IMG/VR virus record: IMGVR_UViG_3300036781_000842
Span: 1 to 32,185 of that record
DNA from: a virus
Strand: one strand, 5' to 3'
Length of the DNA stretch: 32,185 nucleotides
Below are positions 1,980-7,314 of the stretch, one piece after another (position 1 is the first letter of the stretch; each line of letters begins with the position of its first letter). The notes under the pieces are model-generated. The model was not told the origin of the DNA and searched no databases. It saw only the letters and a list, made by a program, of their open reading frames with translations. Position numbers and translations under genes: made by a program.

Positions 1980-2489
1980 ATGGTTGTCCTGCCCCCGAGC
2001 TGCCCCGTGGACTTCGCCGAGTTGCTGCTCGACCTGCAGCGCGCCGGCATGAGCACCCGCGACATTATCGCGGCCACCGGGATCACCCGTGGTTCGATCA
2101 CCGAGTACCGGACGCGCCGCTGCACGATGCCCTCTCACAGGACGGGAGAGGTCCTGCTCGCTGCCTGGTGCGCACGCACGGGGCGCCGGCGCGACGATGC
2201 GCCGCGCAGGACGGACATCACACTCTCGTCCTCCAAGGTCTGCCGCAGCGAGCGAGGTCCCCGAGATAGCTTTGGCACCGGTGATGTCGCGCCTGCCGCC
2301 GTCGCGCTGTTCGAAGTCACATCCGGGTGGGGTCGATCACAGCCTATAAAGTCACTATCGCTCAGGGCCACCGCACCTCAACAATCCGTTCTCGCAGGGC
2401 TGGGAACTCGGCCTCGATTTTGGTCCGGTACGCCGGAGCAGCGTGCAGGTGCTGGATGTCTTCAACCTCGAAAGGCCATTGCCCGATGA
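1980..2489 (+). CDS. HTH protein with doubtful C-terminus
   Basis: The first ~75 residues look like a small helix-turn-helix protein: VDFAELLLDLQRAGMSTRD, then IIAATGITRGSITEYRTRRC as the recognition helix pair, then a helix LLAAWCARTGRR. This layout matches short Cro/C1-type HTH proteins of prophages. After about residue 80 the sequence loses protein-like character and runs over the 3' end of the opposite gene for 128 bases. The natural protein may end near 2240, with an indel having opened the frame. No good ribosome binding site is visible before the ATG. Confidence 0.45.
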   Translation: MVVLPPSCPVDFAELLLDLQRAGMSTRDIIAATGITRGSITEYRTRRCTMPSHRTGEVLLAAWCARTGRRRDDAPRRTDITLSSSKVCRSERGPRDSFGTGDVAPAAVALFEVTSGWGRSQPIKSLSLRATAPQQSVLAGLGTRPRFWSGTPEQRAGAGCLQPRKAIAR

Positions 2490-3099
2490 GCCGCCATTCG
2501 CGCTCCATGTAGAAGTTGTCGCGATGGTCATCCGGAAGATCCGCATTGAAGGGTTTGAGATAGGCAAGTAGGTCCATGGTGAGGGCGCTGCTCAAAGCCA
2601 CGAGTAGCTCCCGTTCATCCTTTGGAACCTTCCCCATTCTTCGCATCCGCGCATCCTTGTCGACACGCGCATCGAAGTGTGCCCTGAAGCCTGCGTAGGT
2701 GGCGTCCAAGTTGCGCAGCATGGTCTTGCCGAAGATACCGTCCCAATCCTCTTTGAAGGTAGGCACGTAGGCGACCGGACGCGCACCCCACTTCATCAGC
2801 TCGGAACGAGCGAAGCTAAGTCCGAATCGGCCATAGCGCGACACGTGAGGCCCCAGCGAACCGGCGGGGATGTCTGCGAAGCAAGTGATGTCCGGCGCGA
2901 TCAGTTGCTCATCAAGCAGCGACGCGCCTGGGCGAAACGTGACCCTGCGCGGGCCGCGCCCAGCTATGTCGTGAGGAGGGAAAGAGATGCAGCGCGAGCG
3001 GAGGACCTTGAGCAGCGTCTCGCAATTGCGTTCATCGTCTTCCGGCGCCGCCCGGCCAACGAAGTGAAAGAGTTCGCGCGAGGTGTACGGCTGCTTCAT
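2362..3099 (-). CDS. AbiGi-like abortive-infection family protein
   Basis: A 245-residue protein resembling, from memory, the family described as 'putative abortive phage resistance protein AbiGi, antitoxin'. Signs: an N-terminal ELFHFVGR (residues ~9-16), a central ITCFADIPAGSLGPHVSRYG (~72-91) followed by FGLSFARSELMKWGARPVAYVP, and a late EREWRLIG typical of this class. It is the last gene of a minus-strand run. The stop of the 94-aa membrane protein upstream lies 28 bases away. The AbiGii partner is not recognisable nearby, so either the family label or the partner is unusual here. Function in phage exclusion is inference. Confidence 0.5.
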   Translation of the reverse strand: MKQPYTSRELFHFVGRAAPEDDERNCETLLKVLRSRCISFPPHDIAGRGPRRVTFRPGASLLDEQLIAPDITCFADIPAGSLGPHVSRYGRFGLSFARSELMKWGARPVAYVPTFKEDWDGIFGKTMLRNLDATYAGFRAHFDARVDKDARMRRMGKVPKDERELLVALSSALTMDLLAYLKPFNADLPDDHRDNFYMEREWRLIGQWPFEVEDIQHLHAAPAYRTKIEAEFPALRERIVEVRWP

Positions 3100-3127
3100 C
3101 GACTCGGTACCACTGTTGGGGCGGGCA

Positions 3128-3412
3128 TCATCTCAAGCGCCTCGCAGCCGCCAGCAACACCACCGCGCCAACGACATCGACTGCCATCCAGGCCTCGCGC
3201 GGCAGGCGAAACTTGATCAGCGGATTGAGCACGATGGCCAGGACCGCGAGGGTCGCGGTGAGCATCTTCTGGCCCTTCCCCGCCGCGGCGACTGCGGCCC
3301 ACACCAGCACAACCGTCGCGATGCTACGGACGATCATGTAGCCCGAGTAGGGCAGCGGCGCAAGCGCCACCAGCAGAAGGATGGCCGCGAAGATCGGAGC
3401 GGGATACGGCAT
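3128..3412 (-). CDS. Small membrane protein (DUF6804-like)
   Basis: A 94-residue protein with three to four hydrophobic segments (MPYPAPIFAAILLLVALAPL; IATVVLVWAAVAAA; LTATLAVLAIVLNPL; VVGAVVLLAAA). The motif AIVLNPLIKFRLPREAW is typical of small bacterial membrane proteins of the DUF6804 type. The start is the ATG after the 17-base gap from the previous gene, and no strong ribosome binding site is seen. It lies between another small membrane gene and the AbiGi-like gene on one strand, so all three are probably co-transcribed. Confidence 0.65.
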   Translation of the reverse strand: MPYPAPIFAAILLLVALAPLPYSGYMIVRSIATVVLVWAAVAAAGKGQKMLTATLAVLAIVLNPLIKFRLPREAWMAVDVVGAVVLLAAARRLR

Positions 3413-3902: not shown

Positions 3903-4787
3903 CTACGCGTTTGCGTCGAGGCCGTACCACATCTCGGTGTCGATTAGTTCCTGGTGACTTTCCAGGTGCTGCAGTCGCGGCAACCAGGGTTCGATCTTCG
4001 CTCGCAGCGAGAAGCGCATGGCGTCGTCGAGAACGGGCATGGTGCGCAGGATCTCTGTGAACCTTGATGCATGCGTCCCTGCTGGCCACGTCCAAGGCTC
4101 TCGAACGCGGTCACGATTGAAGTCGTCAGCTGCAGTAGCGCCTGCCCTCAGATCTTGATAGCGCATTGCGTCTTCAGGAGAGTGCGGCGCCGAGAGTGCC
4201 ATTGCCTTGGCGTTCTTCGTCGTCTGAACCTCAAGGAGCGCCTCGCGCACCGCTTTGACCAGCGGCGCGGCGGCAACGTGAAGCGCAATGCGCGCCCAAG
4301 GCTGGAGGATTTCACGAATCTTTCCCGGATCTACGCTGAGACTCCGCAGATTTGACTTCACCGCCTCCGCTCGCAGATTGCTCTGACGGACGCCAGGGGC
4401 ACTTCCCCAACGTCCCGCGCTACTCGAAAGCTCAATGATCGATTGGCTCGTAATCACAGCAAGCTGACGAAGATTTTGGAGGGTTGCGTCCGCCTCGGTC
4501 AGAACCTCCTTCAATTCGCGAGTCTTGGCTTCGAGACCGAATCCCTTCAGCACCTCGAAGCGATCGATAGAAGCCGCGAGCAAGAGCAGCAATCCCGCAA
4601 TCAGGCAAGTCACTGTCATCACCTGGTTCGCTTCCAATGCCGCATGGCAACCGAGGGCCAGATTGAACAGTCCGGCAAGCAGCAGGGCAACATTCACGAG
4701 GAGAACACAGGCTTTCCTCCCCGCCTTCGTCCACTCGAAACGCAGCAGCGAAGAACCCAAATTCTGGCGCGCGCCTTGGCTTTTCAT
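3903..4787 (-). CDS. Two-TM protein with cytoplasmic helical domain
   Basis: A 294-residue protein. Two hydrophobic helices lie at residues ~26-48 and ~56-75, followed by a coiled-coil-like stretch (~83-115, ELKEVLTEADATLQNLRQLA) and a soluble C-terminal domain with FTEILRTMPVLDDAMRFSLRAK. I chose the ATG at 4787 because GGAGGTGG ends five bases before it; the ATG seven codons upstream has none. No family recognised. The layout (TM pair plus helical soluble part) is seen in several membrane-anchored accessory proteins. A 168-base gap separates it from the next minus-strand operon. Confidence 0.65.
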   Translation of the reverse strand: MKSQGARQNLGSSLLRFEWTKAGRKACVLLVNVALLLAGLFNLALGCHAALEANQVMTVTCLIAGLLLLLAASIDRFEVLKGFGLEAKTRELKEVLTEADATLQNLRQLAVITSQSIIELSSSAGRWGSAPGVRQSNLRAEAVKSNLRSLSVDPGKIREILQPWARIALHVAAAPLVKAVREALLEVQTTKNAKAMALSAPHSPEDAMRYQDLRAGATAADDFNRDRVREPWTWPAGTHASRFTEILRTMPVLDDAMRFSLRAKIEPWLPRLQHLESHQELIDTEMWYGLDANA

Positions 4788-4854
4788 GTCCACCTCCATC
4801 CGAGGCACGGAGCATAGCCGAGGCGCACGAGGAGCCCCGGGCGCTACCCACTGG

Positions 4855-5094
4855 TCAGCGAACGCTGCAACTTCTGGCCTGCTGCAGGCCTTCGATCACC
4901 GCCTCGAGCCGCTTCTCGTCGAACTGCAAACCGCGGCCGCTCGACTTCCATTGCCCGCTGCCCTGTTCGATAAACCACACGCGGATGTAGACCACCTCGT
5001 GGCCCCGGTACTGATCGCGCGTCACGCGGATCTCGGCATCCCGACGATCGACGAGGCCCGAACATGTGAAAGCGCGCCCGCGCGCGCGACCCAT
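4855..5094 (-). CDS. Transcriptional coactivator p15/PC4-like protein
   Basis: A 79-residue protein. Residues ~20-72 fit the PC4/p15 fold, a small single-strand nucleic-acid binding domain: beta strands EIRVTRDQYRG, VVYIRVWFIEQGSGQW, the basic turn KSSGRGLQF, and a terminal helix KRLEAVIEGLQQA. The N-terminal ~18 residues are basic and unlike the family, so the true start may be internal. It starts 14 bases after the preceding gene's stop, so it is likely the third gene of the HipA-like operon. A second PC4-like coding remnant lies at 6962-7156, on the other side of that pair. Confidence 0.55.
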   Translation of the reverse strand: MGRARGRAFTCSGLVDRRDAEIRVTRDQYRGHEVVYIRVWFIEQGSGQWKSSGRGLQFDEKRLEAVIEGLQQARSCSVR

Positions 5095-5107
5095 TGTCCG
5101 CGAGAGA

Positions 5108-5974
5108 CTACGCGCGTTGCGACGCCACAGAGGCTAGGTATGCCGAAGCATCGTTGGCGCTCATGAAGCGATGCGCGACTACGTGGCGCTCTTTTGCCTC
5201 GTGAGCTACGAACTCCCACGACTCATTCAACGCGTCACGCTGTCGGCTCGTATAGGTGTCGCCTGGATCACGATAGCCCACGATGATCTCGGTCCGACGC
5301 GCAACAAAAGGCTTCTCCCGTACGAGGACTTCGAGGTCGAAAAGTTTCAGCTTCAAAGCTCTCACGTCGGCTGCGATAGCCCGCCCGGGTCGAAGAACGC
5401 CGAACTGCGCGGCGTAGTCGCCAAAGAGAAACCCCAGCCTGGCCTTCTTTCGGTGCGTCAAGGCCACAGGCACATTGAACGAGCGAGATAGCGATTCCTG
5501 CTGCGTCGTCAGCACCAGCCCACTTTGAACCTTCTCTGCCCACTCCTCGAAGGCTTTACGCGCTTCGGCGTCGGGCGACTCCGTGCTCGGAATGCCGAAG
5601 TTCGACGCAGAGAACGCACTCGACAGACGCATGGCAATGTCGTAAACCTCGTGGAGGTCTCTGGCGACGCAATCGCGCATTCCTCCAACATGAAGCCCGC
5701 CATATGGCAAAACTATTTTCTCCACAGACACAGCTTGATCGAGCTGCAGCCGAACGCTCAGGACCGTTTTTCCCACGATCAGCACCATCCCCTTGCCGGC
5801 CGCACCAAACATGCTGCCCAAGGTCGCCGGCGGGATGACCTGCCGCACCGATGACTGGCCTCGCGCCGCCCGTGCAACGATAGCAACGGTCAGCGCCTCA
5901 CCCGAGCCTGGCACGGTCTCGAGCATGATCGGCCACCATTGAGCTTCAAACAGCGGAAGTTCCGTTGGAGTCAT
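5108..5974 (-). CDS. Partner protein of the HipA-like gene (unknown function)
   Basis: A 288-residue soluble protein that starts inside the 3' end of the HipA-like gene (29-base overlap), so the two are surely one transcript. The N-terminal part (FEAQWWPIMLETVPGSGEAL) has a GE-containing opening reminiscent of DUF3037-type proteins, which I recall next to HipA-like kinases; that assignment is tentative. The middle is helical (YDIAMRLSSAF) and the last ~100 residues are rich in charged residues. No catalytic motif seen. The gene is followed 14 bases later by the PC4-like gene. Confidence 0.6.
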   Translation of the reverse strand: MTPTELPLFEAQWWPIMLETVPGSGEALTVAIVARAARGQSSVRQVIPPATLGSMFGAAGKGMVLIVGKTVLSVRLQLDQAVSVEKIVLPYGGLHVGGMRDCVARDLHEVYDIAMRLSSAFSASNFGIPSTESPDAEARKAFEEWAEKVQSGLVLTTQQESLSRSFNVPVALTHRKKARLGFLFGDYAAQFGVLRPGRAIAADVRALKLKLFDLEVLVREKPFVARRTEIIVGYRDPGDTYTSRQRDALNESWEFVAHEAKERHVVAHRFMSANDASAYLASVASQRA

Positions 5975-6788
5975 TGGTTTTCGGTGTTATGTCGGCATCT
6001 TGAAGATGCGCCTGCTCTGGCAAGACGCGACGACTTAAAAGATAGTCGAGGTGTTCCATCCTGGTGTTGAGGAACTGCATCACCTCTCGGTATATCTGGG
6101 GACCTTCTTGCAGCTTTCCGAGTTCGGGCGGCATGCGTCCAGAACCCAGTCCGAAGATGGTGCCCGCGCACTTGCGAAAACGTTCCAGGAGCGTGACCCG
6201 TTCAGAGATCCCGCGGCCCTCCATGAGGCGCATCGCAAGCCAATTTGTCACAGCGCCGTCTGGGGCGAGGCCACCCTCAAGGGCTCCTTCGTGGTCTACA
6301 AACCAAACGGCGCCTTCGGGTTCGAACAGCACGTCTCCGGGACCGCGAACTGAGTTTGCAATGAGCTCATCGAACACGGCAGATCGCTCTGCGAGCTTGG
6401 CGCGTTCAAGCGTCTCGAACATGTGGTCGAGATCGTTGATCGGGTAGGCCAAACTGCGCGGGCCGACTTGCTCACAGCCGAAGGCCAGGTGCGACGACCC
6501 GCGAGGTCCCCCGACCAAGTGGGGCGCGACGCTCACCAAAAAAGAGCGCGGACAGGGAAGGCCCATGAACGCACCAAGCTGCGACGAAATCAGCTCAGCG
6601 ACAATACGCCGCGTCGTCAGCCGGGGCTTCACGTACAGCATCAGGCCGCCGCCTCCGCTGTACGCTGGGCAGAGCCAGACTTCATTCCGCGAGCCGCTCA
6701 GGCGCACGCCCGGCGAATGCACAGACGCAGTCAAGACTTCCGGGAAACCGGAGTTCGACAGCGCGATGACATTCGAGACGGGTGGCAT
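5946..6788 (-). CDS. HipA-like kinase homologue with degenerate catalytic loop
   Basis: A 280-residue protein matching the HipA-like kinase fold (HipA_2 type). Visible parts are the ATP-lysine motif LMLYVK (K54), a conserved glutamate helix VAELISSQLGAFMGLPCP (E65), AFGCEQV (~102-108), the catalytic loop FDELIANSVRGPGDVLF (139-155), and the metal motif VWFVDHEGAL (D165). Active relatives read N-x-D-R-x-x-G-N-x-L in the loop. Here the aspartate is Val147 (GTT) and the later asparagine is Asp152 (GAC), each one base from the canonical codon. The protein is therefore predicted to be a pseudokinase or altered enzyme. The start is the first plausible ATG, without a clear ribosome binding site; the frame is open further upstream. 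Confidence 0.6.
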   Translation of the reverse strand: MPPVSNVIALSNSGFPEVLTASVHSPGVRLSGSRNEVWLCPAYSGGGGLMLYVKPRLTTRRIVAELISSQLGAFMGLPCPRSFLVSVAPHLVGGPRGSSHLAFGCEQVGPRSLAYPINDLDHMFETLERAKLAERSAVFDELIANSVRGPGDVLFEPEGAVWFVDHEGALEGGLAPDGAVTNWLAMRLMEGRGISERVTLLERFRKCAGTIFGLGSGRMPPELGKLQEGPQIYREVMQFLNTRMEHLDYLLSRRVLPEQAHLQDADITPKTNDSNGTSAV

Positions 6789-6961: not shown

Positions 6962-7156
6962 TCAAAAGGGTTCCTCCAGGTGTTGCTTCGCCGAGATCAG
7001 CGCGTCGACCAGCGCGTCCAGCTTTCCGGCTTCCACGCCCACCCCCTTTCGGCTCGGCCCCCAGTCGCCGCCGGCCTTGGGGATGTACCAGAGCCGCACG
7101 TCGATCGTGCGCACGCCTCGCCACTCGTTGACCGTGCCCCCGTTTTGCCCAGGCTG
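6962..7156 (-). pseudogene. 5'-truncated PC4/p15-like coding remnant
   Basis: The frame encodes a near-complete PC4/p15 domain: VNEWRGVRTIDVRLWYIPKA, then GGDWGPSRKGVGVE, then helix KLDALVDALISAKQHLEEPF and TGA. It opens directly after an in-frame TGA at 7157-7159 and has no ATG. The only candidate start is a GTG inside the first beta strand (the V of RGVRT), and no ribosome binding site is visible. The N-terminal part usual for this family is absent in every frame, because sequence typical of tRNA-downstream DNA begins there. I therefore read it as a gene cut at its 5' end. It may still be translated from the GTG. Confidence 0.55.
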
Positions 7157-7255: not shown

Positions 7256-7314
7256 TGGAGGAGAGGGAGGGATTCGAACCCTCGGTACTATCGCTAGTAC
7301 GCCTGATTTCGAGT
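7256..7314 (-). other. tRNA-Ser(CGA) 3' half: prophage attachment site
   Basis: Read on the minus strand from 7313 to 7256: anticodon loop CTCGAAA (anticodon CGA), 3' anticodon stem TCAGG, a long variable arm GTACTA-GCGA-TAGTAC (6-bp stem, typical of class II tRNA-Ser), T arm GAGGG-TTCGAAT-CCCTC, acceptor strand CCTCTCC, then T and CCA. The 5' half is absent: the five bases before the loop (CAGAA) cannot pair with TCAGG, so tRNA identity stops at the anticodon loop. This matches an att site formed by integration at a tRNA 3' end. The phage lies to the right, so the intact tRNA-Ser should be at its other end. The discriminator base is T, not the usual G. Confidence 0.8.

Follow-up and report, generated by a model that had tools for sequence, protein, structure and literature searches.

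Gene content of the locus

The window, by which we mean the whole 32,185-base IMG/VR record IMGVR_UViG_3300036781_000842, carries on its minus strand a pair of overlapping genes. The first encodes a HipA-like kinase (positions 5946..6788, minus strand) of 280 aa, with its ATG at 6788 and a stop codon that ends at 5946, and is a predicted pseudokinase. The second encodes a partner protein of 288 aa (5108..5974, minus strand). A gene for a 79-aa PC4-like protein (4855..5094, minus strand) follows on the same strand after a gap of 13 bases, and scores 26.7 bits against PF02229, for which the cut-off is 25 bits. An earlier note on this DNA had placed three open reading frames here, and all three are present on the minus strand, as is the overlap of 29 bases (5946-5974) that it described between the kinase gene and the partner gene. 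A second PC4-like ORF (6962..7114, minus strand; 50 aa) differs from the one at 4855-5094, scores 19.3 bits and thus under the cut-off, and has no clear start codon, so that it is probably truncated at its start. Since this ORF lies upstream of the kinase gene, the pair has, by chance, a PC4-like sequence on either side.

The surroundings are those of a phage with defence-type genes, as the earlier note had supposed. An AbiGi-like gene (2362-3099, minus strand) matches PF10899 with 44.5 bits and the PADLOC AbiGi model with an E-value of 8.5e-11, and has weak relatives on two plasmids; next to it no AbiGii partner was evident. Beside the PC4 gene, the ORF call gives a frame of 301 aa with apparent membrane segments (3903-4808, minus strand), for which no match was found in Pfam, PADLOC, NCBIfam or PHROGs. 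Most of the window is taken up by a lambda-like siphophage structural block (9011-32170, minus strand) with a portal protein (PF05136) and a gpA-type terminase, the latter up to 97% identical to that of another IMG/VR record over 407 residues.

Next to the second PC4-like ORF lies the 3' part of a tRNA-Ser(CGA) gene (7256..7313, minus strand; 58 bases), which we read as an attachment-site junction. The tRNA-Ser att site of the earlier note is thus retained as an att remnant, but the tRNA itself is reduced to this 3' part; ARAGORN finds no tRNA in the window, and the window holds no second copy of the fragment. Within the fragment, 54 bases recur inside an intact tRNA-Ser(CGA) in record L144 and as 3' fragments in records L145 and L146. 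On its high-coordinate side the window gene is 46.5% identical to the gene at the same place in L146, and on its low-coordinate side there are a terminator-like hairpin and a TTGCCT...TTGTCC stretch similar to those that follow the L145 fragment. From these sequence comparisons the fragment is probably the attR end of the prophage, beyond which the pair would lie in DNA of the host or of an adjacent element; attP is the less favoured reading. L146 encodes, on the side of this tRNA-Ser fragment that faces away from the prophage, a protein of 1066 aa with a SIR2-like domain (PF13289; 4831-8031, minus strand). Because this protein and the AbiGi-like gene of the window both lie on that side, the tRNA-Ser site may gather defence-type cargo.

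Predicted folds of the two proteins

The kinase matches the Pfam family HipA_2 (PF20613) with an E-value of 1.9e-5 and 24.5 bits, just below the curated cut-off of 27 bits, and the scores of its relatives reach 41.9 bits. It also matches phrog_3162 (E 2.4e-6) and, with an E-value of only 0.014, the PADLOC model PDC-M66A, which two of the relatives match at 5.8e-7 and 1.3e-7. The predicted model (pLDDT 85.6) resembles CtkA (VIA-align Z 14.5, rmsd 4.7, 216 aligned), and PI4KIIalpha with a VIA-align Z of 12.8. The proposal of the earlier note that the protein is a HipA-like pseudokinase is borne out by the PF20613 match and, as far as the residues tell, by the motif NSVRGPGD, which lacks the catalytic Asp.

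The partner matches phrog_21150 (E 3.5e-22 over 275 residues) and no Pfam family. In its predicted model (pLDDT 91.6, pTM 0.66) the C-terminal domain, residues 139-288, resembles the central domain of ERCC1 (VIA-align Z 10.7, rmsd 2.4, 110 aligned) as well as other XPF-family and nuclease-like domains. When the partner was compared with the PDB by Foldseek alone, no match reached E ≤ 0.001; an XPF-ERCC1 entry came closest (0.023). The N-terminal domain was barely covered by the fold search. An ERCC1/XPF-like fold predicted in this way shows no function by itself. The alignment of 39 partner sequences comprises the rows of a non-redundant set in which L002-L005 were replaced by the matching IMG/VR records L029, L044 and L045. 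Only E26 and L214 are invariant in it, and the 39 sequences therefore display no conserved PD-(D/E)xK set. Consequently, we do not claim nuclease activity for the ERCC1/XPF-like domain. Short proteins on three Pseudomonas plasmids (L006, L007 and L008) match the N-terminal ~40% of the partner only, with no kinase found nearby, and by this match they appear to be stand-alone N-terminal domains of the partner type.

Conservation and surroundings of the pair

The kinase and its partner constitute a real, conserved two-gene module. Among the 56 loci that were fetched with the kinase, the partner lies directly downstream on the same strand in 53, that is in 35 of 37 viral loci, obtained from viral contigs by means of a five-row kinase alignment, and in 18 of 19 genomic loci from species genomes. 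Many of the 56 are near-copies, and about 40 are distinct at 90% kinase identity. The three loci without the pairing are two viral ones cut by a contig end and one acidobacterial MAG with the weakest match. In most pairs the genes abut or overlap by 4 to 34 bases. Searches with tblastn placed the partner beside a HipA-like gene in a Marinobacter plasmid, a Rahnella plasmid, Alteromonas phage P24 and Acinetobacter phage qsb1, and the family is present in phages and genomes from several groups of Gammaproteobacteria. When viral contigs were scanned with the single proteins of the window, a method that reaches close relatives only, no relative of either kinase or partner was confirmed.

The expectation that the three genes travel together holds for the kinase and the partner, but not for the PC4-like gene, which was found in none of the 35 pair-bearing records and genomes searched, while the PC4 model did match one control genome; the PC4 protein of the window also had no tblastn match in the phage collection. 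The PC4-like gene is a bystander and not a member of the module, and the three-gene system proposed in the earlier note was rejected on this count.

A same-strand ORF ends near the start of the kinase gene in 42 of 46 non-redundant loci. Of these 42 upstream ORFs we scanned 35, leaving out seven; the encoded proteins matched HTH_3 in 21 cases and Peptidase_S24 in six, phage repressor types being among them. Among viral loci, a repressor-type gene often precedes the pair. Other settings include tail genes on both sides of the pair in Acinetobacter phage qsb1, porin and efflux genes in Rahnella, and further ordinary genes of chromosomes or plasmids.

Relation to described systems

The nearest described system is the pair of a HipA-like kinase and a DUF3037 protein, which acts as an anti-phage kinase toxin with its antitoxin. 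According to the excerpts available of PMC12548924, such a pair, the PADLOC candidate PDC-M66, protected against phage Bas51; loss of the kinase abolished protection, and toxicity ensued when the DUF3037 gene was lost. In the corresponding excerpts of PMC13092281, the system DS-6, renamed HipAD, consists of a HipA-like kinase and a DUF3037/DUF1829 protein, and mutation of a key predicted catalytic residue in DS-6A, which the excerpt does not specify, abolished defence. The earlier note, which could not match the set to a named system, is right insofar as the partner is unnamed, but a close functional analogue is in print, at least as these excerpts describe PDC-M66 and DS-6/HipAD (PMC12548924, PMC13092281).

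The pair of the window shares with PDC-M66/HipAD the arrangement of two genes with the kinase first and a partner of ~280 aa second, as well as a kinase of the HipA/PI4K type, its first gene being HipA-like by the PF20613 E-value of 1.9e-5 though below the cut-off. The two groups of partners can be aligned, in a single order, along most of their length. The window pair differs in that the pair family described here often sits after phage repressors, in that the catalytic Asp and Asn are swapped in the lineage of the window, and in that none of the 39 partners matches Pfam DUF3037 (PF11236) at E-values up to 1, whereas all 12 control DUF3037 proteins match it. For DS-6B, the excerpted part of PMC13092281 names DUF3037 and DUF1829, and the window partner matches neither.

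DUF3037 proteins were collected from 3 of 59 and 16 of 299 genomes, and those of ~280 aa come after a kinase gene, the gene order being that of the window. When the 39 partners were compared with 12 DUF3037 proteins from ordinary HipA+DUF3037 pairs by hhalign, the probability was 77.7 and the score 43.9, with 236 columns in one order. The highest score among 100 column shuffles was 22.4, the reversed set gave 11.4 and the kinase alignment, used as a control, 12.3; with only one or the other half of the DUF3037 set the scores were 25.8 and 25.9, which is little above the whole-set shuffle maximum. Direct membership in DUF3037 was thus ruled out at the Pfam level and retained as a remote likeness, and by profile comparison the partner would at best be a remote cousin of the DUF3037 proteins. 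For this reason, and since no Pfam DUF3037 match exists, we do not file the pair as a member of HipAD. A tree of 53 kinases separates, by one branch, the ten that are linked to DUF3037 from the 43 others.

With HipBA and HipBST the pair has the kinase fold in common (VIA-align Z 10.0 between the kinase model and the D233Q structure of HipT), but it has no HipB- or HipS-like antitoxin, and its partner is encoded after the kinase, with a predicted fold of an unrelated kind. No Pfam match to an HTH antitoxin of the HipB/HipS type was found in the partner, and no HTH gene lies directly upstream of the kinase in the window. In the cI-rexA-rexB region of lambda, exclusion genes are placed after the repressor, and the placement of the pair recalls this position. 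RexAB homology was considered on account of the position after repressors and is not claimed; the likeness to RexAB-type exclusion, including the Pseudomonas putida case as excerpted from PMC12894663, is one of position only, namely a two-gene cargo that is often found by a prophage repressor, and the pair differs by lacking a membrane protein, as RexAB does by lacking a kinase. The two PHROG entries that the window proteins match, phrog_3162 and phrog_21150, are both listed with "unknown function". In the window the kinase is followed on the same strand by the phrog_21150-type gene, and the pairing of these two families is a result of the present analysis.

A lineage with an altered active site

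A D-R-x-x-x-N loop is found in 60 of the 61 kinases of our first set, the sole exception being the window kinase, where residue comparison gives V147-R-G-P-G-D152 (6333..6350, minus strand) and the catalytic motif reads NSVRGPGD against N-x-D-R-x-x-x-N in the relatives. The closest pair to that of the window, carried by the near-identical records L113/L114 (also L137/L140), has the loop V-R-S-P-S-D. These records were found among the 34 that were searched of 47 terminase-related records, four of the 34 being positive for the partner. The partner scan added a third member with the loop of the lineage, L139, whose record is presumably isolate-derived, judging by the format of its IMG number. The lineage hence comprises three distinct sequences, or four records counting the window.

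In the alignment, all three lineage kinases have Val147 and Asp152 and in this respect do not carry intact catalytic residues (D147V and N152D in the window, L137 and L139), whereas the catalytic Asp and the metal-binding Asn are present in 40 of the 40 others. Ten other invariant residues are retained in the lineage: K54, E65, F139, D140, E141, I143, N145, R148, D165 and H166. The metal-binding D165 of the DH motif (6294..6296, minus strand) is invariant across all compared rows; together with K54 and E65 it presumably belongs to the ATP site.

The kinase of L137 is 40% identical to that of the window and 60% identical to that of L139, which in turn shares 38% with the window kinase. The partners of the window and L137 are 45% identical, so that conservation in the window is slightly lower for the kinase than for the partner (40% vs 45%); this lies inside the spread of ordinary pairs, since the difference of kinase minus partner identity is -5 to +1 percentage points in the lineage and -11 to +13 in 60 ordinary pairs. 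The trio forms one clade with an SH-aLRT support of 100, or 99 when the catalytic columns are removed. Between L137 and L139 we obtained dN 0.385 and dS 1.70 for the kinase, and dN 0.36 and dS 4.05 for the partner, and the selection reading comes from this comparison, as the values obtained against the window are saturated. Owing to the single clade and the purifying selection between its two closest members, the lineage looks like a maintained pseudokinase lineage with an altered active site, rather than the outcome of decay. Pseudogene decay as the cause of the lost Asp was rejected on the grounds that the same two swaps, with the rest intact, occur in two relatives at 38-40% identity. That the pseudokinase state appears to be common to a small lineage goes beyond the view of the earlier note.

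The lineage is rare within the data searched. Three genome samples (369, 36 and 398 genomes) yielded no further V-R member, as judged by the loop motif of the matches; the motif was not visible in the weak match L152, and the sample called "order" gave no match at all and shows little. The final viral scan returned only the same three records. Both lineage relatives of the window sit in phage genomes, where a gene of DNA-binding type overlaps the start of the kinase gene; the window copy has no HTH gene at that place. Searches of the open-licence PMC literature turned up no publication that deals with HipA-like pseudokinases in defence against phages, and within that literature the lineage is unreported.

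Discussion

Our results suggest that the window pair is a divergent, phage-associated form of the HipAD/PDC-M66 type, with a HipA-like kinase and a DUF3037-like partner, and that the kinase of this lineage works as a nucleotide-dependent scaffold or switch, a reading to which we would give about an even chance. According to this hypothesis the N-terminal domain of the partner would bind the kinase, and its ERCC1/XPF-like C-terminal domain would bind nucleic acid or another signal of infection. The complex would be made in lysogens, or from the island, and would act upon infection by another phage. In ordinary members the freed kinase would then phosphorylate a host target and growth would stop, and by analogy with the described pairs the toxin-antitoxin reading, in which a kinase toxin is held by the partner and freed on infection, fits these members. 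In the window lineage, on the other hand, the catalytic Asp and Asn are swapped while the ATP-binding Lys, Glu and Asp are kept, from which we expect that the kinase binds nucleotide but carries out no normal phosphotransfer, the signal being passed through the partner. Complex formation, nucleic-acid binding, defence and kinase-independent action are all steps that we infer.

Loss of the catalytic residue with retention of everything else makes it probable that the lineage kinase acts without phosphorylation. A pure antitoxin would be free to decay under these circumstances, yet the partner has been kept, which favours a partner with a sensing or effector role of its own. More specifically, this pseudokinase lineage, long kept with its partner, could act without phosphotransfer either as a kinase-independent defence of the HipAD type or as a phage-carried decoy against active HipAD, and we consider this possible, if somewhat short of evenly balanced.

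Other explanations should be weighed against the scaffold or switch reading. The kinase could be an ordinary toxin in which Asp152 takes over catalysis, so that the pair would be a normal HipAD-like toxin-antitoxin. K54, E65 and D165 are kept, the Asn has become Asp, the very residue lost from position 147, in all three sequences, and the presumed antitoxin is retained, all of which such a toxin would accommodate; however, Asp147 is invariant in 40 of 40 other members, phosphotransfer is unlikely in the window lineage because the base-equivalent Asp is gone, and the catalytic mutation in DS-6A, at a residue that the excerpt of PMC13092281 leaves unspecified, abolished defence. We therefore regard an ordinary toxin as unlikely. 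Counter-defence or immunity appears a little less probable still. In such a case the dead pair would be a decoy that joins active HipAD-type complexes or takes up the trigger, whereby the phage that carries it escapes or a lysogen avoids poisoning itself. An inactive kinase whose partner is maintained would suit a dominant-negative role of this kind, and both relatives are in phage genomes, but next to the window pair no active one was observed, and the window copy apparently lies outside the prophage, where an anti-defence gene helps the phage less.

Hardly different in probability from the decoy, and if anything slightly behind it, is the possibility that the pair serves to adjust the phage repressor and plays no part in defence. 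A repressor-type gene is often found directly before the pair or overlapping it, consistent with the 21 HTH_3 matches among 35 upstream proteins. Set against such control of lysogeny are the variety of repressor types and the many copies that lie elsewhere, such as among the tail genes of qsb1, by the porin and efflux genes of Rahnella and beside a patatin gene in Vibrio lentus. Finally, a three-gene system with the PC4-like protein as nucleic-acid sensor is very improbable in spite of the 13-base spacing on the same strand and the second PC4-like ORF upstream, given the absence of PC4 from 35 of 35 pair-bearing records and genomes by a model that matches a control genome.

In HipA-like defence pairs, catalysis has so far been taken as the effector, as far as the excerpts of PMC12548924 and PMC13092281 describe them. 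The lineage reported here resembles a natural separation-of-function mutant, being conserved, selected and paired without the catalytic Asp, and with it one can ask directly what the partner does, be it as antitoxin, sensor or effector, and whether inactive copies are deployed by phages against active ones. If the lineage indeed acts without phosphotransfer, the retention of the "antitoxin" after the loss of catalysis would imply that the partner itself is a sensor or effector, through its ERCC1-like nucleic-acid-binding domain, and not merely an inhibitor. The wider two-gene family, listed in PHROGs with no function, gains a concrete hypothesis.

Two further neighbours of the pair may be mentioned. 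In Vibrio lentus (L047) a gene for a patatin-like phospholipase (PF01734; 5892-7127, plus strand) directly follows the pair, and patatin-like phospholipases are an effector type in defence systems. The diverged phage records L115 and L116, which bear the pair, encode beside it a protein of ~200 aa (2612-3265 and 785-1384, respectively, both on the plus strand) without a Pfam match but with the common motif LGFHGC...DWLG.GIYFWE, which as a guess is possibly an ADP-ribosyltransferase-like partner.
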